Below, piece after piece: positions 25,486-45,250 of a stretch of 64,000 nucleotides of DNA. Below the pieces are notes generated by a model, which searched no databases, was not told the DNA's origin, and worked only from the letters and a program-made list of their open reading frames with translations. Source of the DNA: Fusarium oxysporum f. sp. lycopersici 4287 (taxonomy: Eukaryota > Ascomycota > Sordariomycetes > Hypocreales > Nectriaceae); assembly GCF_000149955.1 (NCBI RefSeq), contig NC_030988.1, positions 1 to 64,000 on the forward strand. Direction: 5' to 3'. The translations under genes were made by a program, and so were the position numbers. Within the stretch, counting starts at the first letter, position 1. Each line of letters begins with the position of its first letter.

Positions 25486-25500
25486 CCTGTATTTTCTATG

Positions 25501-25756
25501 AACTCTACCCCATGTCATCAATAGCGCCTTTTCATTTTATATGGGTTTTTCTATGAACTCTACTACAATTCATTGCACCCATTGTGGGTAGACGCGCCTA
25601 ATTAGACAGCAAGCTTCATAGCCAATCATAAAAACACCTCTACCCCTGGCAAAAACCAACTCTACCCCCGGTCCTGATCATCGCGCTCCCCTGTCGAGTG
25701 ACTTCGGAAATTCAACTCTACCCCCTGCAAAGTGGGGCGAAATAATCAACTCTACT
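25501..25756 (+). repeat. Dispersed AACTCTACCCC motif, six copies
   Basis: AACTCTACCCC or close variants start at 25501, 25556, 25636, 25658, 25714 and 25748. Spacing is irregular, so this is not a simple tandem array. Confidence 0.7.
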
Positions 25757-25783
25757 AAAGTTGATTTTGGTATGTAGGACTAA
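25594..25783 (+). repeat. Element-end-like repeat with terminal hairpin, copy 1
   Basis: Shared with 49988-50100, apart from about 75 extra bases here. The last part is a perfect 7-bp stem, ATCAACT (25745-25751) and AGTTGAT (25759-25765), with a 7-base loop. Fourteen bases later comes CTAA, after which the two copies differ. A hairpin just before CTRR is the signature of a Helitron 3' end, but the base after it is G and not the expected T. Confidence 0.6.
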
Positions 25784-25818
25784 GTTGTGATCCTTGCCCC
25801 TGCCACTTGTGATACATC

Positions 25819-28781
25819 CAAGGGTGTGCACCACTCAATTCAATCAACTGAATGGCTCGGTGGCGGTGAGTTGACCTGGTCAACCACTCTCTCTAGTGGC
25901 GTTGATCAATTATCCGTCAAATTGAGTTGAATGGACACTGGTTGAAGTCGTTGATCTCCAAGCCGAGCTAGTTCACTCCCACTCTCCCATCCCCTTTTCT
26001 TCACATCCCACCTCTACCCAGGATCCTTCTTCCGTCCCATCACCACTACCATTCTCAGTAGGAAGTAGTGACAAGTCCAGGTCGTCAATCACCCCAGCCC
26101 GTAACCACGATCGCAGCACTTGACACATTCCTATAATGTCCGCGTCCAGCCGATTTCGTAGTGGCGTCACCATCCGCCCTGCCGCCGCAAACATCCTCTC
26201 ACACTCTGCTGACATCGGCTGGATCGTAAGGAAGTCCAGCGCCATTCGTGAAAGACGAGGATACCGACGTTTGCGCTCATGCCAGTATGATATTGGATCT
26301 CTAACATCGTTATCTCCATCCTCCCATGACGACTGCCATAATTCGAGCTCGTTAATATCTTCATTGATGTCGTCAGACAAAGTCGCTTCCTCTTTCACCA
26401 AACCGTATCCGAGAACCGGCCGCGTGCGCTCACAGTACGCTTGAAATGGGTTGTAGTACTTTCGCTGCCGCTTCGCAACTGGTTCGTCGTCCACGGGACT
26501 CCGGACCACCTGCAGGTGACGATAGTCCGATTCCCACACTTCTCGGACCATCTGCTTCGCCTTCATCACCCATTTCGTGTTATCCTTCCACTCATTCTCG
26601 AAATACCCCCACCGGAAAGCCGGGTGCAGCGCTAAGGCCGTGTAATAGATTGGTGTCTCATCCAGCCTGCTGTAGTACTTGTTGAGTTTTTCCCAACCCA
26701 GATTAATATTGATTCGGAAGTGCTCCGCGTCGGGTATCTCAGAAGCAAGCTGCTTATAGTCCTCGAGTACTTCCAACAAGAACTCGAATCCCTGGATAAC
26801 CTCCCATACATTCCCGTACGAGCCAACCCACCCTCCTTTCCGCTTGCGTTGTTGGCCATCGCCTTCCAGAGTCTTCACGGCGTCCTCGTAGAATCCAAGA
26901 AGCTTAGCCAGGTGTTCCAGGACTACCCAGTCATTGACCGTAAGCTGGTTTTCCTCCAAGCAAATCCGGGGCTCCCTTGCAGACTTTCTGAGATTCCCTG
27001 TCCTCTTTGATCTGTTGTCCTGCTCCCACTGTTGACGATGCTTCAAGACGAGTTGTTCGATGAATGGTCGAAGAATGATGGCGCGTCTAATCATGTATAG
27101 TTGAGAAAGCCACCGGGTATCGTTGTCAATGATCAAATCGACCGGCTGCCTCGCTCTAATCCTGGGGTCCGAAGATAGATCGAATTCGGAGCGTTGTATA
27201 CTCCGCAGCAAATAAGTAAGCTGGTCCGACCTTCGGACGTCAACCACCAGGTTGTGCAGCTTTCCGACAGGTCCTTTGCGCCGCCAAAGTGTGTGCTCCG
27301 CCTCAGACAGAGCAGCTTCCCCTGACAACTGCTCTTCGAAAGCCTCGACGTTGTGGCCAAACAGCAGTGCTTTGGCCGAGAGATTTAGCGTATGGCCGAA
27401 GCAGCGCCCACGCCTCCTCGACCCGACGAACCCGAGCTCACCACCAATTACCTCCATGGCCTTGTCGTTGCTTTCCGCGTTGTCCAGTGTGAAGTACCCA
27501 ATCTTATCCTGGATACTATAGGCGTCAAGGACGTCCAGTATTTCGGCCGCAATGTTGTGTCCGAAATGGCGAGTTCTCAATTCCGGTACACCAAGCGCCA
27601 GCTTGCGTGGCTGGCTATTCTCATCCCGAAAGAAACAAGCAATCCCGTACAAGCTGTGCCTGTTGCCTGACTTCCATCCGTCAAAGGAGACGTGAATCAG
27701 GCCGCATGACTGCTTCAGCGCTGCGACGACCTTATCCTTGTGCATTTCGTAGGCCGAGAGAACTTTGCGGCGGATGGTTGTCCTGGTAATATTGGCATCC
27801 GTGATCTTGACAAGTGGGTTGAGGTATTCGAATATCTGGCGTAGTCTTCCTTGCTCACAGACGCTAAATGCGTGGTTTTCCTCGATAATCCATTCGAGTA
27901 GGAGGCGCTGGAAATGCTTGCGGTCGAAACCCTTGGCCAGACTGTTCGCAATATCTTGTTCGCGCGGGAGTCGCGTATCGAGCTTCATCACTTCGGCGAT
28001 GGACCTCTGATCCTTGGCCTTTAATTTCTCGGCTTTTTTCTCAGCGGCTGATTTCGTCTTATCAGGGGGAGCGCGTATTCCATGGCCCTTGAATAAATGG
28101 GCGTTCGCATTCTGGATTCCCTTCTCCGCGAAGCTTCTGGGTTTAGGATTCTTATTCTGGATGCAGCGCCTGCAGACCCACCGCCGGGCACCAGAAGAAT
28201 CCTCAACATCATACCCGAAGCCCCATACCCACGATGGCGTATCTCGGACGCGTTGGGACCAAACGTAATCCGGGAAGCAACGCCAGAGGTACTGATGTTC
28301 TACTTCTTCATGTGGTCTTTCCTCTTGCAGGCTGGGAGCTGGCGTCGCTAAAGAAGCCACTGCAAGTGTTGCGGAAGATAACAGGTCAACGTCGTTCGTG
28401 GAGGGCGCTGTAGACTCCATTCCTTCTGGTTCAGAGCGTCCAGCTGGATCACGGTCGCGGAAGAACGCGAACATGGAGCGCGTGGGCACTGATCCAAGAG
28501 GGAAAAAACCCCAAGTGATGAGCTAAACCATATTAAAGTTAGTATAACGGGAAGGGTGGATCGCACAGACTAAACCTATTCAAGATACCAAAATCTCTTC
28601 AGGAATCACGAGTCCTATTACCAGCTACCCTAAATCCACCACCTTCAATCCATTCAATCAATGATAACTCAAAATGGATTGATGTTTATGTAATCCGTAT
28701 TCGATATTGATTGACGTTGAGTTGACGTTGATCGTCAATCCATTCAACATATTGAAATACGTTGAGTTGAGCACACCCTTG
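25819..28781 (-). mobile_element. Complete hAT transposon with 8-bp target duplication
   Basis: Terminal inverted repeats CAAGGGTGTGC begin at 25819 and end at 28781, followed inward by ACTCAA-type text. The duplication GATACATC is exact at 25811-25818 and 28782-28789. The element is 2963 bp and holds one uninterrupted transposase gene. Intact ends, an exact duplication and an open gene together suggest a recent insertion. Confidence 0.95.
25973..28489 (-). CDS. hAT transposase, intact
   Basis: A single frame of 838 residues. A BED-like zinc finger lies at about residues 100-145 (WVCRRC ... H ... HGI). The RNase-H-like catalytic core starts near 265 (LIHVSFDGWKSGNRHSLYGI) and includes YFTLDNAESND and, near 360, CFGHTLNLSAKALLFG. 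The hAT dimerisation region is at about 725-790 (MALDFLTIQPMSAECERMF). The protein binds the element ends and catalyses cut-and-paste transposition with 8-bp duplications, as seen at its own borders. Compared with the two decayed hAT genes at 16.7-22.4 kb it belongs to another hAT subgroup (different ends and zinc finger). Nothing in the frame is broken. Confidence 0.92.
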   Translation of the reverse strand: MPTRSMFAFFRDRDPAGRSEPEGMESTAPSTNDVDLLSSATLAVASLATPAPSLQEERPHEEVEHQYLWRCFPDYVWSQRVRDTPSWVWGFGYDVEDSSGARRWVCRRCIQNKNPKPRSFAEKGIQNANAHLFKGHGIRAPPDKTKSAAEKKAEKLKAKDQRSIAEVMKLDTRLPREQDIANSLAKGFDRKHFQRLLLEWIIEENHAFSVCEQGRLRQIFEYLNPLVKITDANITRTTIRRKVLSAYEMHKDKVVAALKQSCGLIHVSFDGWKSGNRHSLYGIACFFRDENSQPRKLALGVPELRTRHFGHNIAAEILDVLDAYSIQDKIGYFTLDNAESNDKAMEVIGGELGFVGSRRRGRCFGHTLNLSAKALLFGHNVEAFEEQLSGEAALSEAEHTLWRRKGPVGKLHNLVVDVRRSDQLTYLLRSIQRSEFDLSSDPRIRARQPVDLIIDNDTRWLSQLYMIRRAIILRPFIEQLVLKHRQQWEQDNRSKRTGNLRKSAREPRICLEENQLTVNDWVVLEHLAKLLGFYEDAVKTLEGDGQQRKRKGGWVGSYGNVWEVIQGFEFLLEVLEDYKQLASEIPDAEHFRININLGWEKLNKYYSRLDETPIYYTALALHPAFRWGYFENEWKDNTKWVMKAKQMVREVWESDYRHLQVVRSPVDDEPVAKRQRKYYNPFQAYCERTRPVLGYGLVKEEATLSDDINEDINELELWQSSWEDGDNDVRDPISYWHERKRRYPRLSRMALDFLTIQPMSAECERMFAAAGRMVTPLRNRLDADIIGMCQVLRSWLRAGVIDDLDLSLLPTENGSGDGTEEGSWVEVGCEEKGMGEWE

Positions 28782-29724
28782 GATACATCCGCATAGCCTC
28801 AGAAACCCAACAGCATAGACCAATAACCGCAGTCACTAAGGTGACGGTACAAGCTATCCAGCCCACAGTCCCCACGTAAGCAACTACACCAAGTGAGAGA
28901 AAAGTAAAAGCCCCTAACAAAACAGCACAAAGAAGGAGGGAAAGCAAATGAAATAAGACGGCCAACTTCGAAATCCCCATTTCCTTATTAAAGGCTTTGT
29001 TGATCTTCCCACGAGCAAACGTCACAATAAGCTTGGTGACGCTTGCAATGCTCAGTCCACTGCAAAAGAGAAGCCAGGCCGTTGTGAGAAATTTGAGAAC
29101 AGTTTCCTTCCGGAATGCTATATTGTTCCCATGCAGCTGAGCGGGATCCTGGATCGGTATGACGATGACTGTGAAGGTAATTGATCCCCCGAAAATGGAT
29201 ACCTTAATTATATGCAGAAGAAATTCTTCAAACCACTTTAAGGTTGGCGCAGTATCATCAGCATTACGAGTACCATCCACGAAGGCATCGCGAACAGTGT
29301 TTTGAATAGTCTCTTGGGCGTTGCTGATTCCAGCTTGGATGCCATCCTTGACGGCAGCTTGGAGAGTCCATTGAATAGTCTCTCGGGCACCGCTGATTCC
29401 AGCCTGGATGCCATCCTTGACGGCATCTTGGAGAGTCCCTTGAATATTGTCTCGGGCGCTGCTGATTCCAGCCTGGGTACCATCGTTGACGGCATTTTGG
29501 AGGGTCCCTTGAATATTGTCTCGGGCGCTGCTGATTCCAGCCTGGGTACCATCGTTGACGGCATTTTGGAGGGTCCCTTGAATATTGTCTCGGGCGCTGC
29601 TGATTCCAGCCTGGGTACCATCGTTGACGGCATTTTGGAGGGTCCCTTGAATATTGTCTCGGGCGCTGCTGATTCCAGCCTGGGTACCATCGTTGACGGC
29701 ATCTCGAACAATTTGCGAAGTCAT
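28744..29724 (-). CDS. Membrane protein with tandem 23-residue repeats; 3' end replaced by a hAT insertion
   Basis: 326 codons. After seven residues come six copies of a 23-residue unit, NAVNDGTQAGISSARDNIQG plus TLQ; copies 1-4 are almost identical, and a partial seventh follows. The periodic Ile/Leu/Val spacing suggests an amphipathic helix. Residues about 180-315 hold four hydrophobic stretches, likely membrane spans. I do not recognise the family. The hAT element entered after ...SEAMRMY, so the last 12 or so codons come from the transposon end. Read without it, the frame would go on through YHKWQGQG for a few codons into another repeat. The original C-terminus is therefore uncertain and the gene may be impaired. 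Confidence 0.6.
   Translation of the reverse strand: MTSQIVRDAVNDGTQAGISSARDNIQGTLQNAVNDGTQAGISSARDNIQGTLQNAVNDGTQAGISSARDNIQGTLQNAVNDGTQAGISSARDNIQGTLQDAVKDGIQAGISGARETIQWTLQAAVKDGIQAGISNAQETIQNTVRDAFVDGTRNADDTAPTLKWFEEFLLHIIKVSIFGGSITFTVIVIPIQDPAQLHGNNIAFRKETVLKFLTTAWLLFCSGLSIASVTKLIVTFARGKINKAFNKEMGISKLAVLFHLLSLLLCAVLLGAFTFLSLGVVAYVGTVGWIACTVTLVTAVIGLCCWVSEAMRMYPRVCSTQRISIC
29290..29703 (-). repeat. Coding minisatellite, six units of 69 bp
   Basis: Six head-to-tail 69-bp units encode the 23-residue repeats. The units nearest the gene start are nearly identical in DNA and the last two differ at several codons, which fits recent expansion from the 5' side. Confidence 0.9.
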
Positions 29725-29764
29725 ATTGTTGAGAGACGAATGTACTATTTTGACTTATTATAGT

Positions 29765-30830
29765 GAGGTATAATCTAGGGTAGTAAAGTTTGGACGCATA
29801 CTTGACTACTTATATAAGTCTGTAATTTGATGTCTAAATTTCGCAAAAATGCAGGTGATAAGGCTCGAGGAAAGTTTAACTTTGAACGACATCCAGAGGG
29901 TTAGCGAGACGCTCAGGTGGCGGTCACCGCCGCAAAGCCAGAGAGCCACCAGTCCACGTACCTCGGCCTCAGCCACAACTCAGCCACGCAGCTGTGAAGC
30001 CTCGTGCCAGCACCTAGCGATATAAGAATGGATGGATGGGTGGGTGGGATGCTCCACCAAATGGCGAATGCTCCGCGTCAAGCAATTATTTAGATTGCAC
30101 TTTAGATCAGGTTGAAGATAGATGTGGTTGACTTGATATGTTTTGTTAAGCAAGTGATTGATAATAGCGATCCTAGTGAGAATTGGGACTTGTTCGGATC
30201 TGATGGCCGTTATATACACTTATGAATTGATAGATAAATGCACCTAGAGTATTTTAATCATCGGAATCTCACTTATACCTCTAGCAACAATATGACAACT
30301 AGGCCCGGAGGCTCCATGATCCGACTACATAAGACCTGTGCGGCTGTGTCCTAACCTATCAGAGAGCGAGGAGGACATTGAGAAGGGGCTTCAGTCATAC
30401 TAGTTAGCCCAGATTCTCGATAGACGTGGCAGTTTCAACCAGGCCAGGCTCTTCCTGAAATAGCCTGTTGAGGCTCAACCTTTCTGCGGCTCGACCCTGC
30501 TGTTGACAGCCCGATGGCTTGGCAGCACACCCCTTCAATACTTGATAGGGCTGTAGCATCGATGTAGCTCGGTATTGAAAACCCTAAAAATAGGGACCGA
30601 CGTTCTAGGTCTTAAGCCATGGCGCCTTCTCACAACGGGATTCAGACACATCCACGTCAGCCCCGAATAATTGCGTCACTATGAATTATTCTAGTTCGAA
30701 CTGCAAGACAACAGGAATTTGGAGCGCTGAAAGCCTCATCAGTGAGGCCAATCTGATCGCCCAGTATCCACTATGCCGCTTAGTGTGACGTAGTCAATTC
30801 ATCTATACTGTGATATTTCTCCGACTTGGC
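29765..30830. other. Intergenic, nothing recognised
   Basis: Only short frames without domains. Confidence 0.45.
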
Positions 30831-30832
30831 TG

Positions 30833-31111
30833 CTATCCTCGGGGGGCTCTTTTCCTGCTCTGGAGAGAACTTTTGCTCGTGCTCATGATCCTTTTGACGA
30901 TTTCGCCCGCCTGGCCATCCGCGTCTTGGGCATTAACATCGACTTCACCTATGTCTAGAAGCAGCTTAACGATAGACTCATGTCCTCTCGCCGCGCCCCA
31001 CAAGGTGTAACGCTGCGATCTACGTAAATTCTGGGGCAGTTTGTGTCTGTTTCGCATCTTTGGCTCCCCTGCGCAACGAAGTGAGTCGTTATGCTGAACG
31101 GATGTTTTCAT
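30833..31111 (-). pseudogene. Ankyrin-repeat gene relic
   Basis: Within this frame TLWGAARGHESIVKLLLDIG and then DVNAQDADGQ form one ankyrin repeat and the start of another. The surrounding residues show no further repeats. It is most simply a leftover of an ankyrin-containing gene, perhaps of an NLR. Confidence 0.5.
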
Positions 31112-31125
31112 GATTTCGGGGTCAC

Positions 31126-31143
31126 TTTTTTTTTTTTTTTTTT
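31126..31143 (+). repeat. Run of 18 T
   Basis: A T tract of this length could be the poly(A) tail of a minus-strand retroposed sequence lying to its right, but the neighbouring DNA is lost in the gap. Confidence 0.5.
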
Positions 31144-31287
31144 GATTGTATATGGTCCTAAGAAATATAACTCAATCAACACCGAGATGATCATTTGGTC
31201 TTCTAATTCGCTAGAACACTTTAGTATATAGGCTAGGCAACCGATACAAACCATTCGATCAACTCAGCTCAACAGGTGCCACACAGG

Positions 31288-31387
31288 NNNNNNNNNNNNN
31301 NNNNNNNNNNNNNNNNNNNNNNNNNNNNNNNNNNNNNNNNNNNNNNNNNNNNNNNNNNNNNNNNNNNNNNNNNNNNNNNNNNNNNNN
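31288..31387. other. Assembly gap (100 N)
   Basis: Exactly 100 N. The poly-T run and an ankyrin relic lie just left of it, so repeats may have caused the break. Confidence 0.99.
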
Positions 31388-31856
31388 ATTTTACCATTCT
31401 ACATCCCCAATTGCTTGGAGCCAACTCTCGCGCTCAACAATTCAGCGTCATTCGAGCATGGCCACTCGCCTAAGCCTGTAAGCATATGATTTGAAGAAGG
31501 GTATCGATTCTGGCGTTAGTGGCGCTCTACCGCAATGAAGGCCCGTAGGGGAGATCTTGCTAACGTGCACGGTTGGGGAAATTGTCAGACATTACGTGTA
31601 TTCGGTCCATTGACCCAGATTGGTATATTCATGTTGTGTTGTATTCTACCCCTTAGAGGTTTTACCATTTCGGCTGTAATCTTAAAGTATCCCTGCTTGC
31701 ACGTGAGGCCCCAGCACCTGTTCAACAGAAATTGCGATCAGAATGAAGAATAAGTGGAGTGTCATGATGATCTTGCCCATATTTAGAAGAAGCTCGATGC
31801 GTGCACGGGCCAGATTCTGTGTAATTCGGCACATTACAACGAGCCCTTGTTACAGT

Positions 31857-31946
31857 AGAAACGCAGTGCGTTTCTATAGGGGAAATATAGGGCGAAAATG
31901 CTAGACGGTGATTGGTCAAAAACCAGAAACGCAATGCGTCTCTGGT
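31857..31946. repeat. Two palindromes with an ACGCA-TGCGT core
   Basis: AGAAACGCAGTGCGTTTCT (31857-31875) has 9-bp arms around one base. ACCAGAAACGCAATGCGTCT and following bases (31922-31946) form a second, near-perfect palindrome with the same core. They could be paired protein-binding sites or ends of a small foldback element. They lie over 1.9 kb downstream of the HeLo gene and just past the NACHT gene's 3' end. Confidence 0.6.
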
Positions 31947-32330
31947 GATAATTCTTGAGTAGGCTGTTTGATAGTGGATCTTAATTTGGATTATAGCTAA
32001 TGCGGCTAATAAGTTTGTTCTGAAAAGAATAATGGACATATCAATGGAACGCTGCGTAGTGCTTCGTTCAGCTAGCCGAGACGATGGCTCGGAGTTCTTG
32101 CACCCTTGACTTAGATAGTTCAGACACTATCTGGTTATGTTGATGCTGGGAAGCGTTACTCCTGTCCCGTCCACAATTCGTGCATCACCGTAGTCGTGGG
32201 TCCATTTCTTGCGGAGGATGCATCTGCGTCCCGGCATTGTACATGTCTGCAGTGGTTCCACTGGGGTAATAAGCGGCAGTCTGGGTCGAGTCAAGGGAAT
32301 CTACTATAGATTAGCAACGGCTCTACCAAC

Positions 32331-33488
32331 TTAAAAGGCTTTCGTACGATTGCAATTGTTGCTTGGCGACTGCTGCGGGCTAAAGGTTGATGCTCCTGAG
32401 GTCTGAGTAAAGTATTCGTTTGGCTTGACTTCTTGTATTAATTTGCCCTTCCTCTTCTTTTGGGGATATGACTTCAACTTGTCGCGCATATGTCGTTTTC
32501 GGACCTTGGGATCTGCGAGCTCTTGACAGACCAGAGCTACCCAGAGAAACGTGTCATTGGCATGAGAGACCAAGTGTTGTTCAACGACATCCCGTGTCTG
32601 GCGATCATATTTCTTTTCTTTTGCCAGTGCTTCAACCCTGTGCCGAATGAAAATGCGTACGGCGGCGGAGATTGAAGCCTGATTTAATTCGAGGTGAAGC
32701 CTGACTTTCTGCTTCGTATTATCCAGTTTCTCCTCGATGTCTGGCCAGTTGCGACTCGAGACAATCCATTTGACACGAGGAAATTCAGATGATATCTTGA
32801 CAATCCAGTCGAGAAGTTGCTGACAACCTGTCAGGCATTCGTCGAGCGCGTCGATGATCAGCAAGGTGCTGTCTCGCAAGGTTTCTGCAAAGATGTCTTC
32901 AAAGATTTCAGACAAAGCCACCCATGCATTCACATCCTCAAAGAGTCTTTTACCGGCATTTTTGTACCTTTTCTTTACGTGCGAGATGAGGGACGGTTGC
33001 TGGTCAAGAAGGAGGTAAATGAGACCGCGCAGCACGGCCGTTGCATTGTTAATGCGCGAGTCGGCGGCCTGGCAAAAGAAGTGAGCCAGAGGCTTCTTGC
33101 CTTGCTTCTCTAGCTCCTTGACAATGCCGCAGAGCAACATGGTTTTGCCCTTGCCAGGATCGCCCTTGATCCAGAGCAGCCGGCTGTCTCTGTCGTCTCG
33201 CCATCTCCGAAAGTCCTGATGATGCAGAATCCACTTGTACGAGTCCTTGATAAGCCCACCCTTTGTCTCCTCAATGCGTCTCTTGTCATGGCGGGGATCG
33301 GTTACTTGTAGGTCGATAAGGCACTGGTCAAGGTTTAGGTCGCTGTGGTTCGCGTAGTTGTTCGTCATGTAATTGTTTGTCGTGTAGTTATCTCCCACCT
33401 CGAGTCTGCCATTGCCAGAAATTGTCGCATTCCTCAGGGAATTGATAGTCCCCTTTCCTCGTTCGTCATTCGTTGCCATTTCGAGCAC
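32331..33488 (-). CDS. NLR-type NACHT protein with N-terminal HET-s-like amyloid motif
   Basis: 385 residues. The N-terminus (about 16-35) carries NSLRNATISGNGRLEVGDNY, which lines up position by position with the C-terminal repeats of the neighbouring HeLo protein (G at 10, R at 13, V-G-D at 16-18). An Asn-rich linker follows. The NACHT NTPase then has a Walker A GDPGKGKT near residues 109-116, a Walker B LLIIDALDEC, and a sensor-like WIVSSR. In fungal pairs of this type the receptor oligomerises on ligand binding and its motif templates amyloid folding of the HeLo effector. This protein stops soon after the NACHT, and I see no WD, ankyrin or TPR repeats for ligand sensing. It may be truncated, spliced further, or a minimal regulator. 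It lies 552 bp downstream of the HeLo gene on the same strand. Confidence 0.8.
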   Translation of the reverse strand: MLEMATNDERGKGTINSLRNATISGNGRLEVGDNYTTNNYMTNNYANHSDLNLDQCLIDLQVTDPRHDKRRIEETKGGLIKDSYKWILHHQDFRRWRDDRDSRLLWIKGDPGKGKTMLLCGIVKELEKQGKKPLAHFFCQAADSRINNATAVLRGLIYLLLDQQPSLISHVKKRYKNAGKRLFEDVNAWVALSEIFEDIFAETLRDSTLLIIDALDECLTGCQQLLDWIVKISSEFPRVKWIVSSRNWPDIEEKLDNTKQKVRLHLELNQASISAAVRIFIRHRVEALAKEKKYDRQTRDVVEQHLVSHANDTFLWVALVCQELADPKVRKRHMRDKLKSYPQKKRKGKLIQEVKPNEYFTQTSGASTFSPQQSPSNNCNRTKAF

Positions 33489-34040
33489 ATCGAGGGTTTG
33501 GCACCGAACACGAAAGTCCTCCGAGATCAGCTGTACCCAGTCAAATTGGATAATGTTGACCGCACTGCCATCCTCGACTAGGGAAGTGACTCATATTAGG
33601 AAGATTTTGGGCACTGGTACGTACAGATTAGCTGTCCTTTTTTTGACCCTGCCTCTGTAGATTGGAGCCAATCAATGCTCAAAACAGTCGTCTGCACAAG
33701 CCACTAAGCCGCCGCGGAGTTTAAGAAGCAGCTAGGTTATTTTTAGGGATTGACATCTGCGACCTGGGCGCTTTCCAGATAAGGGCATAGCGCCAGTGGT
33801 TCCAGGGTCGCGCAGCCGGCTTGGGGTTTGTCGCTCGCCCAGAAATGAAACCAACGGGCTTGCTGGCGGGAGAAGGTACGAATCACGAGATCAGGCTGTG
33901 GAATAGCAGGACTCCCTCGAGGCGAGGTGGTAGTATTTATCAATAAATGGCGTGCCTATGTGCAGGAACATAGTTCCCAGCGCTGCTAACCTCAGGATAT
34001 GACATCGTTCTAGCTTGGAGGGGATTTCTCTGAGCATGCC

Positions 34041-34907
34041 CTAGTCGCTGTCCATAAATCCCTTGGTTCCATGACTATCCCCGACAAGCACTCTCGACCT
34101 TCCCTGCGCATCTAAATCCCCAATCCTGTTCGTCGTGATGCCAGTCCTGCTGGGAACTGCTTGAAAGATATATTCGTTCCCCACCTTTACCTTTGCGGTT
34201 TCGGCCACCTTCGCTTGGTCTATCGCGTTGCTGCTGCCTAGTGCTTCTAGTCTCCTACTTGCTGCCTCTTGAAGAAGGTCATCTGTCTCTTGCGCCGCGT
34301 CTGACAACACCTGTAGGCTTGGCCCTTCTCCAACTTCTTCAATTTCGATCTCCACCATCCGCTTGTAGGTTTCCTGTTGCGGAAATATGGCCTCCAAGCC
34401 GTCAAGAAGTTCCTGAATATCCTCAATCAACCGCATGAAGGACTTTTGCTTATAGAGTGCCCAGGATATCTTCTTCGATAGACTCGTGGTCTTCTGCCGC
34501 TTGTGCGCAAGATCACGCATCGTGTTTCGCAGTGCCACGACGGCCTGGTTGGTATTCGTGCTTGGATCGAATAGAGCCAACTCCTCTTCTCCCTCGCCTA
34601 ATTTGAAGTTGGACGACTCCGTATGTGCATTGCGGAACAGGTTTAGGAGTTGCTCCAATGTGTTCTTCGCTACGCGGACCTGATTGTTGCTAGGTTTGAC
34701 TTCCGTAAATCTGCTGTCATTGTTAATCTTGGCAGCATCTCCCCAACGAGAAAGACGCAGTCGAGCAATGTCGAGTTTAACCTGGCAAGTCTGGTAGTCC
34801 TCCCCAAAATTCCGTCCCAGCTGGATGTATTCAAAGCAGTCAACCACGTTATTGAAGAGTACCGCAACGCTCAGCGCGCTGGCAACGACGCCGAATATCT
34901 CAGCCAT
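34041..34907 (-). CDS. HET-S/HET-s-like HeLo-domain protein with C-terminal prion-type repeats
   Basis: 288 residues, almost the length of Podospora HET-s (289). Residues 1 to about 220 form a HeLo domain that starts with a hydrophobic stretch (IFGVVASALSVAVLF) and the conserved VDCFEYIQLGR. The C-terminal 60 residues hold two imperfect copies of the amyloid repeat, about 227-246 and 260-279, ending in G-x-K-G-F. In Podospora the HeLo domain of the HET-S form inserts into membranes and kills the cell once its C-terminus is templated into the beta-solenoid fold. The residue that separates the two Podospora alleles (33) is Asn here. Adjacency to the NACHT gene with a matching motif supports a receptor-effector pair. 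The frame is open and no intron is needed. Cell-death activity is inferred, not shown. Confidence 0.88.
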   Translation of the reverse strand: MAEIFGVVASALSVAVLFNNVVDCFEYIQLGRNFGEDYQTCQVKLDIARLRLSRWGDAAKINNDSRFTEVKPSNNQVRVAKNTLEQLLNLFRNAHTESSNFKLGEGEEELALFDPSTNTNQAVVALRNTMRDLAHKRQKTTSLSKKISWALYKQKSFMRLIEDIQELLDGLEAIFPQQETYKRMVEIEIEEVGEGPSLQVLSDAAQETDDLLQEAASRRLEALGSSNAIDQAKVAETAKVKVGNEYIFQAVPSRTGITTNRIGDLDAQGRSRVLVGDSHGTKGFMDSD

Positions 34908-34919
34908 GATATGCTAGAG

Positions 34920-35990
34920 CAGAGGAGTCACCGGGTATTTGTGATAATGCTGCAATTAGGGAGCCGATGGGGATCGCTCATGAGTGGGAAATGCCTTGAA
35001 CTGCAATTCTGGAAGGTAAAGATGCCGATTTACCGCCTCAAGTGAGTACCCACCCCTGCCTTTTCCGCCTAATCTTGCTGCCTCCTGTGAAGGAACCATA
35101 TCTTGCGGCTTTCCCAGTTGCTCCTATCCGGATGCGGGAACGCTAGTCAGGGAATGATTATATTATTTGCTCACTCGAAGCTGCTTTAAACTTTCTTCGT
35201 CTGGCCTGCAGCATGTGATCTCTTTTAGGTTTCCTGATAGCCATCCGTTATCCGGGGCATGTGAAAATAGCGGATCCCGATAGCCGCCTGCCTGACATAA
35301 TCATCACCATTTTACCGCACTTTCTAAAGAGCATTTTTGTGAAAACAATCCCAAGGTGGGGTTTTTATTTTCAATCAGCCGCTATGCTATTGAATTATCG
35401 CACCAAGAATATCAGCCTTGCTTCTCATGTCAGTAACCGCTACCATCTGCCGCAACCACAAAATCATTAGAAAGTGCGCATGCTACTCTGCTTCTCGATT
35501 TTCGGTTTAGTAAGTTCTGCCAATGGAATTTGTTTTACATGCAGAGGTCTTACCACCGTCGTATATGGGCTTGTCGCCCACCCTAAGAGCACTCGAAGCC
35601 GGGTTGGCACTCTAGAGCTTGATTAAGCATGTGAAAAGGCGTCGGACAGTGTGTGGTAACACATGTAGAACCTCTCTGGTCATCATATGAGCATCAGAAT
35701 TATCGTGAATACGATACAGCTGGGGCGCGGAATTCAATGGATCGATGCACACTCTTAATGCTAGCGGAAAAAAGGGAGCCATAATCGATTCATTTACCCT
35801 GACTGCATTCCTGTTCGCCGGATAATATTCCGCACTACAGGAAAAGCCTTACAAAACGAAGGGTTGTAACATTATAATGGGCTCTAATTGGATAAACCGC
35901 AGCCTTCGGGGCTTTGTTGGCCACGGATACTCTGGCTCTCTGCTACGGTTGGATTCTTCGTTCACTCGAGATGCTATTTTCCCATGGTCA
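34920..35990. other. Intergenic, nothing recognised
   Basis: This is the upstream region of the HeLo gene and downstream region of the DUF2235 gene. Frames are short and without domains. Confidence 0.5.
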
Positions 35991-35991
35991 C

Positions 35992-37422
35992 TCAGCCCAC
36001 GACCCTGCTCATCCCGTTTATCCCATTGTCCCTATCTAGATCCAACAGAATGCTCTCTGGACACAGTAATCTCGATAAACTTTCCTTGACTCGATACTTC
36101 ACCCTCCCACTCTCCTCGTACGCTACACTCATCTTCTTTTCCGGGCGCATCACGTACTCGGGTATCGACTGGACGCCCCTCTTCACCCACTTCCACCCCT
36201 CGCTGCCATCAGGTCTCTCGATGGCATATCCCTGCAACGACACCGGGTTGTAGTTGAGGTTGTCCTTGCGGATTCGAGTGATAGGATGGAAATACTCGTT
36301 CGTGGCGCCACTAGTGCCATCGCCTGGGTCCCGCGGATAAGTGCCCGGTGCGCGGTCTTTCTTCCCGAGAAGCCAGAAGAAGAGGCCTTGCAGCCCTGAG
36401 AAGTTATCGACGATCGGCCCACAGCCCCAGCCGCCGATGTTGCCGTGGACGCCGGGAAACCAGCATTGCTGCAGATCTTTCGCAGGACCGTCAGCAGTCT
36501 TGTGCCACAGGGTAGGAGAGAAGGTTAGTCGTTTTTCGTCAATGGCGAGGGCTTGGAAAGCATAGTCTAGATCTGAAGGAGTCGTCATTTAGGCCCGGCC
36601 GTTCTGTGAGGAACACGTGCGATAATACTCACTCTTTGATACGTTCGTATTGTGGAATGCATACTGCTTGTTGATTGGGAGGCCAACTTTTGCCGCCCAA
36701 TCTACCACGGGCCATTCCGGGATTCCCTAGCCATGCAAGGTCAGTCAAACGGGAGAAGCATGCATGATAACTTGCGTCGCGTACCAGAGCTCCAACGGTA
36801 TCCCAAACACCAACCACCTTAACCCTGACGTCCGTAAGACCCAGCTCTTCCTTATTGTCCAGATACCACGCTGACTTCCTGAAGGGCTCACCACTCGTAT
36901 TCGAACGGTACACGCTCCACATCTCTGCGAAGCGCGACATGTGCACAGCTGAAAGGACGCCGACATCGCAGACAAGGCCGGCGACCGATCGCACAGTGAA
37001 AGCCCCACGCGAGAAGCCGAAGAAGAACAACTCATCGCCAGGCTCGTAGTTATTGGAAATGAAATCGTAGATTTGAGCCACATCGATGTCAAGACCCCAG
37101 CCGAAGCCGCCTGTGAAATGCAGTAGCAAAAATGTCAGTAAAGCTGTCAGAGGGAAAGCGAAGAGGGAGATTTGGATTTCAGCAGCTCACCGTAGATAGC
37201 TTTCTGGAAGGGGAGGTCCCCGCTTCCAAGGTTCGAATGGTAGGATACGATCTGCTTGACGAGGTTCCCTTCATCATCAGGGCCACTGTTCGCAACTGCT
37301 CGAGCCAACTTAGCGACATTGGAAGGCATGGCCTTTCCGCCCGTATCGGACGCAAGCCATGTGCCGTCTGAGCAGAGGATGATACGCTTATAGCTTGCTA
37401 GCTTGGTCGTGTCTTCTGGCAT
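35992..37422 (-). CDS. DUF2235 alpha/beta hydrolase (Tle1-like phospholipase fold), four exons
   Basis: Four exons join in frame: 37191-37422, 36785-37110, 36633-36726 and 35992-36572. The three introns (80, 58 and 60 nt) have GT and AG ends, and the first has an ACTGAC branch site. The product is 410 residues. The start ATG at 37422 precedes the diagnostic opening RIILCSDGTW (residues 13-22). The nucleophile elbow GFSRGAF is near residue 107, and a catalytic-type His lies in FPGVHGNIGGW near 258. DUF2235 is the domain of bacterial type VI lipase effectors of the Tle1 group. Fungal relatives are common and mostly uncharacterised, so hydrolysis of lipid esters is a family-based guess. It lies in the same strand run as the HeLo and NACHT genes, but nothing shows joint function. 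Confidence 0.85.
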
Positions 37423-37856
37423 AGTGTAGCAAGGCTGGATGATTGAAAATAAAAAGGAGAAACTGTCAGTTTGAGGGGCCAGTTTTTCTAAGGAATCATT
37501 GATGAAGGCTGTCTTATCAATGGGGGTCTGGAGATAGTGAAATACGCTGGCCGTCAAATTCGGTCTTCAATAAAAGAGTCCTGGTGGCTCGGTATCGAAG
37601 AGGATAAAATATGGTGACACCCTCACCGGAGTCGGGGAGGGCGTAATAAAGTCCGAAGGATGTATCTCTATGCTGTGGAGGATTGTCTGAGATGAAATTT
37701 CATATTGCATTGCTTATATTGCTAACTGTGGATGTCGTTAAGATTTTAAGAAAAAAGAGGATGGAAAAGCGGCTGATCAAGTTGCTGTTGCCTCCGCCGG
37801 TCCTGGTCGCGGACCTTCATCAGATCACCTACTAATCGGTTAGGACTTATAGAGCC

Positions 37857-40800
37857 TCACGTGGTACTATTCTTGCCATCAGGTAGCTTGTCATAGTGGA
37901 GAGATGCGCGTTCAAATGGGGCATCGATCATTAACCCCTCTAGCATCTTGACCCTCGACACTGCAACGTAGCTAAGCCCCGTCTGAAAGTCCCGTTCCGA
38001 CAGATCCGTCACCATCTTGTCCACCGTGATGCTCTGTGACTTGTGAACCGTAATGGCGTATTATACTGTAAGTGGGAACTGCTTCCGTGTACACGCGGAC
38101 GTCCCAAGAAAGAAGTCTCGCTTCACGGGGAGTATGGGTACTACCTCGCGCCTATCATCAGTGGTTAGATAAGATGGCCCCGTATACTTGTCTATCACCA
38201 TCATAATGACACACGGCGGGTCACGATGTGTATCAGCGCCAGGTGCCCAGCCGATGTCATACACTATCCCCTGGGCCCCATTAACCAGGCCTGCTGGCTG
38301 CCAGATGTTCTGGGTGATCATGAGGCGAGCACCGATACATACCGGAAACTGGCCAGCCAGGTTGCCAGCCTGTTCAGATGTTGCCTTGTCAGCACCGTTG
38401 CCAATGTTCTTGGCCATGACTTGGATTGCTGGCTTCTTCAGACGGACTAGGTGGTCGTAGTTGTACTCATTGACACGAGCTTTCTTGCTATAGATCCGGA
38501 GAGTAGTATCGAACTTGTCCACCTCGCACTGGCTTAGCTTGGCCTGCACACGCTGGCTCAGAAGTTTCCATGATTCGATGGATAACCTCAGACCGCGCAG
38601 TTCTTCAAGCGCGAGACGAAAGCCAGCCTGGTCGTCGCCCTGCTGCCGCTCGACCTTCTTCAAGAAGACAGTGTGGTTGAAGGCCCTATATGCCGCCTGG
38701 CCAGAGACCTCGTGCAGGTCCTTGAGCGGCCCATCAAAGTAGAGGGGCTTGTTTGCAACCGGCGGGAGCTGGAAGAAGTCGCCAACGAGGATGATGCTCA
38801 TGCCGCCAAAGAAGTCGGCTGCTCTGCCGGGAAAGACTTGGCGGAGGCGTTTGTCAACCCACGAAAGCTGGCGCAGACCCAGTATACTCTTCTCGTCAAT
38901 CACGAGATACCGAACGTCCCGTAGCTTCTTCTGGATAGCATTAGCATCTGCTGGCGATAGCTCTGTAAAAGCTCTATCAACGGGTAGCCGGAGAAGGGAG
39001 TGTAGAGTTGTCCCCATGATCTGGTTGCTTGCAACACCCGTGGGTGCAGCTCTCCAGATCGGACTGGGCCGGTCACCAGCGAGCCTCTGAAGATGCGAAG
39101 ACAGGACTTTGATCATGTAGGACTTGCCTGTCCCGCCGCCGCCGTCAACGTGGAGTAGAATCTGCTCCTCGCTGCCACACTGAAAGTGTCCAACAAACGT
39201 ATCGTATACTATCCGCTGCTCCGGGTTGAGCGTATCGCGGACCTCTAAAGGCAGGTCCTCAACATCCATATCGAGACGATCCTGCTCGATCCGCTGGCGC
39301 CAATAATCGCCCTGAACGATTCCTGGGTCGGCGTAGCGGCCGACGTGGGGTGTCCAATCGTATTGGATGTCGATATCCCGTCTGCCAAGAAGATCTATTG
39401 CCTCTTGGCTTGGTGGGCAGTTGGGAAGCTGACGGGCAAGCTCAAGCCAGTCCTCCTCCACAAGGTCAGGTTCGTGAAATTCCCGCTCGAACTGATCCGG
39501 ATCTGGTCGACGTTCCTCGGTGTTGGGTGTGCCGTAGTAATCATCAGGGTGCTGGTGGTTCCCGTAACAGAATTCGGCGGCAAGTGCGTAAGATGCGTAC
39601 TCGACACCGTTGACCTTGCGTAGTTGGTTGGGATCGCGATGTGGATGGGCCAGCATCAGCTTGACGCGGCAAAAATCATCGTATTGGTCATGTTGACGGT
39701 TAGAGCTGTACCGCGGGAAGTAGTATAGAACACGAGGCTTGGCTTGACGACCCCAACGTGTCCACTTTGTCCCGTCCCTCTTACTTGTATTCCAGTTGGC
39801 TAGAAAGTCAAGATAGGTGAGTTCTTCGTGGAGGGGTGGGCGAGAAAGATACTTATCATATATCCCAACAACCTCGGCGTCATCATGATCACCCTGGAGG
39901 CGAAGAGACCGTCCCTGCTGCTCGTACGGACGGCAATCAACAGCTCTGACAACACGAGTGCCCTCCTGCAGCTCGCAGTTGAGCAAGACGTGGCAGATCT
40001 CTTGCCCCGAGAAATCCCTCTCCGCAAGCAACTTGTTCATTAGACGCGAAGCAAAAGAGAGAAGCGGGTTATGGTGTGAGACGTAAGGCAAGATTTGTCG
40101 CCCCAGGCTGGCATAGCTGTCAGTCCGCTTCTCCATCTTACTGCAATACTTGGCTGCATAATTGATCACAGCCTGGAGACTGGTACAGGGGGATATGTCA
40201 ATGTTGGCTAACCAGCCAAGACTGAGGCACCGGTTGTAGTGGTTCATCAGGCTGTCGTTCCTGGTCGCCTCAAAGGAGAAGTAGGACTGTCCTTGTCGCC
40301 GAACAACGTCGGCCGTATCTCTCGTATCTCTTGGGAAGAAAAAGCGGCAAGAAATCTCCCCTAAATCTTTCTTCTTCCGTAGGCAGTATGTCTCACTGCA
40401 ATGGTGACGCTGGCAGCGGTTCAGAATCTGCGAGAGCCATTGGAAGGTCAAGGGATGCCGCAAGGGATTTACGGCCAGGGGATTGCCTTCTCCTTGCTGC
40501 TGCACTCGAGCCGGCTCAGGATTCAAAGCCGTAACATGGGACCCCCAGATACGGACGAACTCCTTACGCGTATGCTCATTTTCCAAGTCGACACTGGGCG
40601 CACCGTCCATCCAGAATAAGCCATGGCAATGGCTACTTCCACGGCCCTGCCATTCATACCTGTTCCAATAATCAGTCACGTTGAACTTCTGCTTCAGAAC
40701 GATATCCCTGAATAGACCGAATCGCCTGTAGAAGTGCCAGGCTGCAATGTGTGGATTATCTCGGAGAAGCTTGCTAGACATGCCCATCCGTTGTTGCTCG

Positions 40801-42828
40801 GGCAACTCCTGCCAGTCTTGGAACTGGGGCAGATGCTGGTAGAGGCTCCTCCAATGCAAGTCAGCCGGGGTGAAAGTAATAAAGGCTCCGGGACTGTCGA
40901 GGTTGTAGGCATAAGACTCAAGCTCTCGACGCTTGCGGTACCAATACGGCCGTGTCCCGCGAAGCTGCGCTGTCTGGCGGTTAATCGAGTTGAGTAGCTG
41001 CTGGGCATCTGCCGATTCAGGGTTCTGGAAAGCCTCCAGTAGATCATCCCGCGTTATTGGGCCCCGCCTTTGATGGTGTTGCTTGACGAAATAGCTGCTT
41101 TTGGCCCGCGCCTGTGCTCGCATCAGCGTGTTGAAAACCACAAACCGGAATGTCGGATGGCGGGCAAATCTGCCATCGTGCCATCGAAGGGCATGCTGTA
41201 TGTAGTCTGCATACTTGATAGGCCGTAGCCTCGGCTCAACAAAATCGGCTTGACCACGAGGAAATAGTGTTGGAAAGGCCATGGAGAGAAGTGCTTGCGA
41301 TCGGTTGAACTCGTTTACCGGCGTCCTCCGAATATCTGGCATTTCAAGCTGATGTTGTGTCGGCTGTCGTACAGGAACCGGTTCATCGCGCTCTTCGCCA
41401 AGAATGCGCGAATGCAGTGCTTCCATCTCTGTATCCTCTGGTAGCAGATCTGGTACTGCAGGCTGGTCAACCTCATCCGGCTCAACGTCGTCATTCTCCG
41501 TGGCACCTAAATCAGCTGAAAGAGGATCAGTCACGTCCACAGCAGCAACCTGATCAAGTACATCGTCATCTTCAGGCAGAACTGACATCCGCTTCTGGCA
41601 GACAGCAATATCTCGGTAGCCCGGATGGCTACGGCGCAGGAAATCCAGCCACGCCTGGAGACAGCGACGGCGTACGCGGTGTTGGAAAATCCGGGAATCC
41701 CCCTTATCTTCAGGATTCAGACTGTTAGTCTGAAAGTCCTAGATTTAAAGTTCAAAGTCCTAGATGAAATCATCTAGAGATATAAACCCGAGAAGAACTC
41801 TCATCTCAATAATGAACAATTAAGTTTCATAAAATATACTTTCACCCAGCACTACTGCGCAATATAAACAACACGCGGAACTGGCGTCTGAATTGGCGGT
41901 CAAGGTGGGCATGTTCGCTTGCATTCGGAGGGCGTAGCAGGATAACATCTAATTCAGAGGGTAGAAGAGGAAGTTGGCGATACACTTTGCCAACATCGCG
42001 GAGAAAATGCACAATATGGCCACGATACTTGTATTGCTGGCCCCGGACCTGCATGACGTTCACAAATACATGAACTCGAGCGATTAGCATCTCTTCTATT
42101 CTTGTCAACTGGGGGAGGAATGCGGGGACTGAGCCAAAATCCAATTGATTTTCGGCTGAAAAAAACAGAGGTTCATCCTCCTTTTTGTTCTTGTCCTTGG
42201 CCATGCAACGCTTGCAAACGCCGTCTTTCAAGCCCATGTCAAACCATGTCTCCTGACAACGGGCGCAGTGTTCCATCCGGTCGTTTTCCAGCTCCGTCCA
42301 GAACGCCTCCAGGAGGTCCTTATCTTTATCAGACAACGGGCAATGCGACAGATCACGCGCCCAGTCCGGGTCAGGAAGTTCAAAATCTCGATGTTCTGGG
42401 TGTTCGATGGCCGGCTGCTGCAGCTGTGCGGGCGGGCGGGGATTTCTTCCCCTTCGAGTTGGCCTCGGGTAAATAGAAAGACGCGATACCGGAGATTCGA
42501 TCGGCGTCCCGAGTCGTACGCCTTCTTGAGAAGCAGCCGACGGACCTGGTCGGGGAGTAATCGGCGCGTCCGTTCGTGTTGACGTGGTGATTGGTGTGCC
42601 CAGTTGCAAGTCTATCAATGGCAATCCTTCTCGAAATATTGGGGATAACTCAGCTTGTTCTGCCGTACGCTTAGAGGCGCCTAAGGCTCGTCGATTCCTA
42701 CAGTCTAGACAGTCGGTCGTAGGTCTTCCACATGCGAGTGACGACTTTGTCTTCGAAATGAATTGATCTGCTGGCTTCTCCTGCTTGCATTTCCTGCAAA
42801 CGTTCATCGAAGGGATAGAATCAGCCAT
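37857..42828 (-). pseudogene. Helitron Rep-helicase gene, broken by a solo LTR and one stop
   Basis: Two long frames (38061-41588 and 41842-42828) form one gene. Ignoring the LTR and one 5-bp duplication leaves 1591 codons from ATG 42828 to TGA 37857 in a single frame. The N-terminus has a zinc-binding start (CRKCKQ ... CLDC) and further Cys pairs. The HUH motif HCHGLFW lies near residue 665 and the catalytic Tyr region NYAAKYCSK near 825. The PIF1-type helicase has GGGGTGKS near 1163, LVIDEKS, and VGDFFQLPP. A TAA at 38061-38063 interrupts the frame just before helicase motif VI (YAITVHKSQ), which continues in frame behind it. Helitrons replicate by rolling circle. I could not place the TC and CTRR element ends, so the borders of the transposon are unknown. 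Confidence 0.92.
41680..41873 (+). repeat. Solo LTR, 194 bp, with 5-bp target duplication, inside the Helitron gene
   Basis: Begins TGTTGGAAAATCC and ends AATATAAACAACA. It is close to identical with 19745-19937 apart from scattered substitutions. The duplication CGCGG is exact at 41675-41679 and 41874-41878. Its removal restores the Helitron frame. Confidence 0.95.
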
Positions 42829-42942
42829 GACTGACTGTGTTGGATTGGAGGGTCCAACGACGGGATTTGCATTAGAGTTTATTCAAGCTGCCTGCTATAG
42901 TTCAAACAAATTTACTAAAAATAAGAGAGTTATAAAGTACTA

Positions 42943-43380
42943 ACGTACTCCACAAGTGAGTGTCCCATACAAGCGAGTGTCCCAAACACATTTTACACCT
43001 TAAACTGCCATTTTAAAAAACTACATCGAAAGTCTTAATCAAGCTTAAACTGCCTGAAAACTTAGATTCAGGCCAATGAACAACGGGAACACATAGAAGA
43101 GACGTTTTCTAAATTCTATTTGTATTATTTAGAATATTACGAGGAAAAGCTGTGTTCGCACTGTCTTTTCTCCTATTTTCAGGCATAGAACATCGAATAG
43201 ACCGTCGAATGGTTTGGAGGAACCTCAAACATATGACTTTTTGCTCAGGAGACTATGGATAAGATTTTCAAGAAGCTAGCAGTGCTATGGCGGAATTTGC
43301 GAAATCCAATATTGCCATTTTTAGGTGCACAGTATAGGTGGGACACTCACTTGTATGGGACACTCCCTTGTGGAGTACGT
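42943..43380. mobile_element. MITE of Tc1/mariner type, 438 bp, TA-flanked
   Basis: The ends begin ACGTACTCCACAAG and are inverted matches over about 42 bp with two or three mismatches. Each end contains two copies of CAAGnGAGTGTCCCA. Both ends are flanked by TA (42941-42942 and 43381-43382), the duplication made by Tc1/mariner transposases. The interior is AT-rich without a coding frame. It sits 115 bp upstream of the Helitron start codon. Confidence 0.88.
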
Positions 43381-43382
43381 TA

Positions 43383-45250
43383 GAATTTTGTCGCATGTTG
43401 GCAAGAAACATGGAGAACTCAGGGAAAAGACTGTACGCACGGGCCTGTTTGTGTGCGTTTTGTCGAAATGCAAGAGGGGAGGCTACAGTAGGACATCACG
43501 GAAGCTTACGTCTATACGCTCCACATAACTCGTCCAGGCATAGCCCTGTGGAATGGACAACCTGTACAGAAATAACTTAATCCTACGACGTGGAGTTTGC
43601 GACCGCCCCTGGCCCTCAACATGTACGGCAGCTCTGGACAGGTCAGGAGCCGGATCCCCTTACGACTCGGGAATTTCCTAGCCACTAAGATTGGTTTGCT
43701 TGTCCTGTGGGAGGTTCCGCATCTCATTTTGTTGGTTCACACATGGGTTGCTTCAGCTAGATCAGTCCCTGCTATCTGTCGCCGCAGGCTTGAGCGGGGT
43801 GCACGGAACTTTCCATATGCACGATTTGGTCAGCACGCTGTCACTTATACGGCGTTGCAGCGGCATGATATGGCGATAGTTAACCTTCCGAAGCAAGGAC
43901 CTACTATGGGTATTAGCTGATGGTTGGGGATTGGTTTGGCAGCTTAGCTTGGTTGTTGACAACTGGTTCCCCACCACCCGGTGGCCTGGGGTCCAGGAAT
44001 GTCACTGCAACCGGCTCTATGCAGCAAAAACATTCCCCAACTTGGCAGTGCTTGACCCGACACCCACGTTTGGCGTAATAGCACGGTACTCGCTGCTGGA
44101 TCAGTTGAGTGCGGTATTGGGCGGATGGGGAGTCGTCCGGCGGCTAGGAGGAGCCCGGCAGTTGGGTCCTTGCAGCACTCCTGTGTAGCTCAGTAGGGGT
44201 CCTTGAGCCAGCCAGTCACCATTGAATGCAATAATTGCCTAACTGCTACATCAAGGCTCGTTCCGGAGATGTGTTCGTCCTTTTTGTGGCAATTTCATGT
44301 GAGAGAAGTTGTCTTTCCAATCCATACAGATTATGCAGAACGATGAGGGCCGTCCTGTTAGGCAACCATCCTCTTCGGCAACCCGTCAATACTGTCATGG
44401 CTTAATGCTCTTGAAAGATCATTTACTAAACAGGCTATATGAAGCATTAAATATACCCTTGTATTGATACATGAGAGGGTTCAGCTAACCATACTCAAGC
44501 CCGCCTAATTGCTCTCACTGGCTACAAGGGCTGATGGACAAGGTTGTGTTACTATAGAGCCTGGTGGTCACACATTAATAGATAATGCGTCTCAAGGTTT
44601 ATCCTGGGCTGGAAACGTTATGGACGCGGTAGCCAGAAACATGACAATAACGTCGAGCTTGGTCATCGAAATAGAGTTAACCCGACTATAGCCTTGTAAC
44701 TCAGTATCGTGGTGCACTGCATACCTGCCAGTAAGCTTAGCCTAAAAAGATTTAAGGTTCGGGGCGAGCGTAAGTATCAAGTCAGTGGCCATCATCATGA
44801 ATAGCCCGATTGGGTGCAATCATGGAGCCCTGTTATGGAATCACATGCATCTACATTTGATATCACACATGTTTAACCCTAAGCCTGAGTAGTGCATGGA
44901 CCCCAGGGTAGAAAGGGGCTGCAACTCGAGTCGTAAGCTACCGAGCTAAATGTGGAGTTACAGCAAGAAAGTAGGCTAGGCCAGATAGCGGGAGAGAAAC
45001 AGCCCAAGGCAGATCGCAGGCAGGTAGTCCAGAATCGGTTCGTAGCGGTTTCACTGCAATTTTAGATTTGCTTAATTGTATTCATTGCTGTCGATAACTT
45101 TGATCCGTCTTGATTCAGTTGCATTATCCATTCTCGGTGCCTCGTCTCCAGGGTACTACCCCCTTCTTCCATATGCCGTTAAACATTATGTTACGGTACT
45201 AGTCTGATGAATATCGAAGTGTATCGATACTCGCAGATGATATACCAGGC
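43383..45250. other. Intergenic, no supportable gene
   Basis: Plus-strand frames at 43597-44188 change phase repeatedly and show no domain I recognise. They could be a decayed gene of unknown type. Confidence 0.4.

Follow-up and report, generated by a model that had tools for sequence, protein, structure and literature searches.

The question that this locus raises is whether the window (the whole stretch of 64,000 nucleotides that was analysed) holds a complete receptor-effector pair for amyloid-signalled cell death. The initial annotation had proposed such a pair for two neighbouring open reading frames, and both frames are indeed there, at 34041..34907 and 32331..33479. Their layout is like that of Podospora het-S/nwd2: an effector with a HeLo domain and two amyloid repeats (r1 and r2) adjoins an NLR gene with a matching motif (r0). 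The two genes lie in tandem, both on the minus strand, and 561 bp separate the NLR from the upstream effector gene. What does not hold is the completeness of the pair. The NLR lacks everything beyond about residue 340. Its close long relatives still have this part, which comprises the remainder of the STAND module and a WD40 sensor, and the shortening of the NACHT protein had been overlooked. We consider that the locus is probably a HET-S/NWD2-type gene pair with an intact effector and a broken receptor. Its features are the following.

34041..34907, minus strand: HET-S-like effector gene, 288 aa, full length, uninterrupted frame
34305..34892, minus strand: HeLo pore-forming domain, effector residues 6-201 (PF14479, 178.3 bits)
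34167..34229, minus strand: r1, first amyloid repeat, effector residues 227-247
34068..34130, minus strand: r2, second amyloid repeat, effector residues 260-280
32331..33479, minus strand: truncated NWD2-type NLR, 382-aa open frame
33381..33443, minus strand: r0, one N-terminal amyloid motif, NLR residues 13-33 (PSSM scan)
32655..33182, minus strand: NACHT nucleotide-binding domain, NLR residues 100-275 (P-loop GDPGKGKT; DALDE; PF05729)
32331..32459, minus strand: tail of 42 residues plus stop, unaligned to NLR relatives
31924..32217, no strand assigned: repeat downstream of the break, 98% identity to C6:1447660-1447953
31388-31584 and 31728-31859, no strand assigned: dispersed repeat, interrupted by a second repeat at 31582-31730

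The HET-S-like effector

The effector was described by the initial annotation as a HeLo protein of HET-s-like length with two C-terminal amyloid repeats, and this description is borne out. The HeLo, NACHT and HET-s prion-domain profile searches that had been proposed give matches to PF14479, PF05729 and PF11558. The HeLo match of the effector compares with a cut-off of 23.2 bits, and its match to PF11558 (HET-s_218-289) is barely above the cut-off, at 34.1 against 32.2 bits. In a sequence search against solved structures, for which the query was used without its first Met, the HeLo part matches the solved HET-s/HET-S HeLo domains (2wvn at 203.8 bits and 2wvo at 192.9 bits) and the C-terminal part matches the HET-s amyloid chains (24.8 bits). 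The AF2 model of the effector likewise finds the HeLo structures 2wvq, 2wvn and 2wvo at E values of 3e-13 to 2e-12 (ranks 1-4), and HET-s amyloid models at 0.35-0.63 only (ranks 5, 6 and 8). The confidence of this model is low, with a mean pLDDT of 61.7; it places strands at residues 228-234 and 239-242 on r1 and at 261-267 and 272-275 on r2.

Two full-length relatives from F. oxysporum records, P0001 and P0002, are 96% identical to the effector. P0001 and the receptor relative P0244, treated below, are on contigs of equal length (6,774,195), which hints at a fuller pair on a single contig. The effector carries D23, N33 and Q86, whereas Podospora HET-S has A23, H33 and E86. Among the 22 near rows of our alignment, defined by a cut of at least 57% HeLo identity that we chose ourselves, N33 is found in 21 and Q86 in 20. 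An H33N mutant of HET-S retains het-S specificity, as stated in a figure legend (PMC4055769, Fig. S1), and the E86K mutant is described as being without dimerisation and killing (PMC3531502). We regard N33 as a HET-S-type, killing residue and would expect the effector to be able to kill. The effector also appears to belong to HRAM1, a label that here follows from N1 and PF11558.

A midpoint-rooted tree built from 123 HeLo rows places the effector in a group of 26 rows with a support of 100/100, apart from the other 97. The named members of this clade are scattered over F. oxysporum, Clonostachys, Phialocephala, Cenococcum and Thozetella. Horizontal transfer of the clade was considered in view of this scatter and not adopted.

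The amyloid motifs of effector and receptor

The repeats r1 and r2 are separated by a 12-residue loop, and both carry N1, the core hydrophobic positions and G17 in the alignment. The motif glycine at position 17 is retained in 118 of 119 ungapped homologue rows for r1 and in 115 of 116 for r2. The residue-by-residue match between receptor and effector that had been reported earlier is seen for r2, which has N1, G10, R13, V16, G17 and D18 in common with r0. Only N1, V16 and G17 of these positions are present in r1, which carries E10, K13 and N18.

For a quantitative comparison we used a profile of 217 distinct ungapped r1 and r2 repeats from 121 HeLo rows (120 listed of 158 homologues, plus the C12 protein described below), from which gapped repeats were dropped and the window effector was left out. 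With this combined profile r0 scores 22.8 bits. Only r2, r1 and r0 itself reach this score among the 60,106 six-frame 21-mers of the window, and it is never reached when the first 60 NLR residues are shuffled 20,000 times. With the r1-only profile r0 scores 24.4 bits, again with 0 of 20,000 shuffles as high; with the r2-only profile it scores 13.0 bits, which 11 of 20,000 shuffles reach. Among 120 listed NACHT homologues (3525 were found), 6 score at least as high as r0 in their first 90 residues. That the likeness of r0 to the repeats is due to chance could be argued from the shuffles that reach the r2-only score and from the Pfam r0 profile PF17108, for which the window NACHT protein is not among the matches at E <= 1 (the C12 receptor is matched at 44.8-49 bits). 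This explanation is hardly credible, given the shuffles with the other two profiles, the rank of r0 within the window and the nearly unchanged motif in the receptor relatives P0241-P0244.

By profile, r0 is thus r1-like. This is contrary to the tendency of HRAM1 r0 motifs to cluster with r2 that is given in section 7 of PMC4518210, yet G10, R13 and D18 are common to r0 and r2 and not to r1. Position 18 is D in r0 and r2 of the window pair and N in those of Podospora HET-S/NWD2. In the 22 near rows, r2 has D18 in 16 of the 20 that are ungapped, while N is found in 73 of the 96 ungapped rows among the other 99. Since the r0 of the window receptor and of P0241-P0244 also reads VGD, with D18, the motifs of effector and receptor match. 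Concerted change of r0 and r1/r2 has been described in general terms (PMC4518210), and in our reading of the alignments D18 in both r0 and r2 is a change of this kind. All three motifs would be predicted to fold as amyloid.

Truncation of the NWD2-type receptor

The receptor gives 58.2 bits for PF05729 (NACHT) and 131.5 bits for PF24883 (NPHP3_N, residues 80-243), but its STAND module is cut at about residue 340. The longest of the close relatives, P0241 (F. solani, 1092 aa), is 92% identical to the window receptor over residues 1-340. It has nearly the same r0, as do P0242, P0243 and P0244, and all four proteins extend to WD40 repeats. The homology of the window NLR ends at nucleotide 32460 and is followed by the 42-residue tail, with its stop at 32331. 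The tblastn alignments of P0241 and P0244 end at 32463 and 32460, respectively, and the genome search also ends at 32460. All nine aligned relatives run on beyond the break point, with GL[DN]..LY.RMM, and even P0122 (Fusarium sp.), which is short at 441 aa, extends beyond it. None of these nine proteins aligns with the tail.

Residues 341-1092 of P0241 have no tblastn match in the window, where the only other match of this protein is a distant one at 62183-62986, to P0241 residues 83-350. In the rest of the genome they are covered only by more distant paralogues, at 69% or less (42 of 267 candidates scored). The profile search lists no WD40 or other C-terminal repeats for the window NLR. An AF2 model of the truncated receptor has a low confidence of 59.1, and its Foldseek matches are to generic AAA+ proteins, none at E <= 0.001.

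The motif r0 is shown by five of the nine aligned receptor relatives, P0241-P0244 and P0123. In P0122, P0245 and P0246 the protein begins only after the motif, and P0121 (Ilyonectria) is without r0 as annotated. Upstream of the receptor ATG, 37 codons are open (window 33480-33590, minus strand) and resemble the N-terminus of P0121; the lack of r0 at the expected place in P0121 looks, by eye, like a frame difference there.

Several explanations of the break were considered. A missed intron leading to a downstream exon does not fit, as P0241 residues 341-1092 find nothing downstream in the window and the strict donor pattern is absent between 32659 and 31388, the nearest being at 32660. Insertion of a transposon was considered: repeats lie at 32217 and below, yet 32218-32459 is unique to the window and its duplicate at C6. 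The last 118 bp of the repeat at 31924-32217 were also matched in a separate search, and the dispersed repeat at 31388..31859 gave 45 reported matches, from 40 of 310 candidates scored. RIP indices of the receptor part (0.42 and 1.40) are not raised, and the product index of the tail, 1.17, comes from 129 bases only. An ankyrin fragment at 30833-31171 (minus strand), lying beyond the repeats and the gap, has an ANK match of 21.2 bits at a cut-off of 21.1. It was rejected as part of a lost sensor, although it is not disproved, because the close relatives of the NLR carry WD40 repeats. Elsewhere in the window, at 29302-29702, a unit of 69 bp, a length divisible by three, is repeated 5.8 times in tandem with 95% matches.

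The break might also be an artefact of the assembly, with the real gene continuing and the sequence after 32460 misjoined. There is an N gap at 31288-31387, about 1 kb downstream of the break, a gap likewise in the C6 copy and repeats between gap and break, and the two copies are not independent. Nevertheless, no gap interrupts the sequence around the join at 32460, from which the Ns are 1 kb away, and both copies have the join. Because 32218-32459 is found only in the duplication, no other locus accounts for a misjoin. We therefore hold this explanation to be very improbable, and an assembly fault retains only a little weight against our preferred reading.

In an intact pair, following the Podospora literature, a ligand would bind the WD40 repeats and the NACHT domain would oligomerise. 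The clustered r0 motifs would then adopt a beta-solenoid fold and serve as a template for r1/r2 of HET-S, whose HeLo domain would enter the membrane and kill the cell. The window receptor would have only r0 and the nucleotide-binding domain left for this process. With neither a WD40 sensor nor the remainder of the STAND module, this gene most likely no longer supports ligand-gated signalling. The effector could possibly be activated by another receptor with r0, or it may be an orphan.

A fact that counts against a simple loss is that the 382-aa frame is open, so that a short protein could be made. Such a protein might be a working receptor that senses through its NACHT domain or its tail and seeds the HET-S-like protein, and the pair would then be complete. 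The P-loop is present, r0 is well kept and some published NWD2 homologues are without typical repeats (PMC4344463). We think this quite unlikely, as the homology stops abruptly inside a block that all nine aligned relatives continue, P0241-P0244 extend to WD40 repeats and the tail finds no counterpart in any of the nine. Another unlikely possibility is that the shortened receptor, freed of inhibitory WD40 repeats, acts in nature as a seed or regulator of HET-S that needs no ligand and nucleates or titrates the amyloid. In yeast, strongly expressed NWD2 without its WD repeats could dispense with a ligand, and an NWD2(1-30)-GFP fusion assembled spontaneously (both PMC4344463). Thus an expressed r0-NACHT protein might seed freely, and r0 and the nucleotide-binding domain are the parts that remain in the window receptor. 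However, the break also takes the STAND module from about residue 340 onwards, and an unchecked seed next to an effector that kills should be fatal to the cell once both are expressed. That the two coexist therefore points to a lack of expression, a low level of it or a loss of activity, and the presence of the short receptor beside an apparently HET-S-type effector suggests that the receptor is silent or inactive. It seems decidedly improbable to us that the r0-NACHT gene is alive and, without any ligand, seeds or dampens amyloid formation by the effector, with its two identical copies being kept on accessory DNA that is duplicated and possibly mobile. If it were true, the receptor pair would have become a prion-like element or one that determines incompatibility at the level of strains.

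The duplicate copy, related loci and known systems

The locus with its broken receptor is present twice in the genome. At C6:4450472-4453996 we find a copy that is 100% identical and has the same truncation. In the two C6 stretches compared, window 25486-43384 is collinear with C6 in reverse at 99.98-100%, except for the gap at 31288-31387. The two copies lie within one recent duplication, which is why they are not counted as independent.

Some further genes of the window deserve mention. Beside the HET-S-like gene, three adjacent frames (35992-37566, minus strand) match successive parts of a Tle1-like phospholipase catalytic domain (PF09994) and are probably one gene with introns. A Helitron-type transposon protein with a PIF1 helicase is encoded at 38061-41738 (minus strand) in one open frame of 1225 aa. 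At 60582-63999 (minus strand), nucleoside phosphorylase-like, NACHT and ankyrin-repeat frames follow in series, as judged by eye and, for the NACHT frame, by similarity; this is probably another fungal NLR.

Counting duplicates, HeLo is matched 19 times in the genome at E <= 0.001. Two distinct effector loci lie above the PF11558 cut-off, the duplicated C3/C6 locus and one at C12. The C12 pair (about C12:1782136-1787853) consists of a HET-S-like effector of 287 aa and an r0-NACHT receptor frame of 562 aa in divergent orientation, whereas the window pair is in tandem. Both effectors are HET-S-like with two repeats, at 34% identity and with a C12 r1 that is two residues shorter, and both receptors have NACHT and r0. 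A 744-aa frame follows the C12 receptor frame, and its beta-propeller matches are all below the curated cut-offs. Assuming that the two frames are joined, the C12 receptor is apparently complete.

A HeLo domain 75% identical to that of the window effector is encoded at C8:3554386-3554964. In this protein the amyloid repeats are replaced by a P-loop sequence, as seen by eye, and then by TPR repeats found by Pfam. In the HeLo tree it clusters near the window effector, in a starred set of 7 rows, and over 219 codons the two HeLo domains differ by a dN of 0.126 and a dS of 0.468. Apparently the same killing domain is used here as the effector of a fused NLR.

This kind of pair is already known: HET-S/NWD2 pairs, among them pairs of F. 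oxysporum, were described in 2012 (PMC3321046), and surveys followed in 2015 (PMC4518210, PMC4344463). The 2012 set has HET-s homologues of several Fusarium species, including FOX1713, FOX14669 and FG08145. As the genome has only two distinct loci above the PF11558 cut-off, the window effector may be among FOX1713 and FOX14669. Our literature search found no published description of the truncated receptor. In the 2015 survey, a neighbouring receptor was reported for 46 of 55 genomes with HET-S homologues (PMC4344463).

The window locus provides a clear Fusarium case in which the HET-S effector has been kept and the receptor decapitated. Expression of the short gene would make the locus a natural experiment on a WD-less amyloid-signalling receptor beside its own effector; if the gene is silent, the locus is unremarkable and reflects the known turnover of fungal NLRs.

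Compared with Podospora HET-S/NWD2, where ligand-dependent templating of HET-s/HET-S proceeds through the r0 of NWD2 (PMC4344463), the window has the same arrangement of a HeLo effector of about 289 aa with r1 and r2 adjoining a NACHT NLR with one N-terminal r0. Unlike in Podospora, the genes are in tandem and not divergent, and the receptor is truncated and without WD40 repeats. The 2012 Fusarium HET-S/STAND pairs share the genus and the pair type with the window pair; both tandem and divergent orientations are reported for pairs in PMC3321046. For the broken receptor, the nearest precedent described is nwd2 of the Podospora het-s strains, which is disrupted by a repa scar and premature stops (PMC3321046, PMC4344463). 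In these strains, as in the window, the effector is kept, the adjacent receptor is broken and repeated DNA is found at the locus. The two cases differ in that the Podospora effector is of the non-killing HET-s type, with P33, whereas residue 33 of the window effector is the HET-S-type N, and in that nwd2 carries premature stops whereas the window receptor has its whole 3' part missing.
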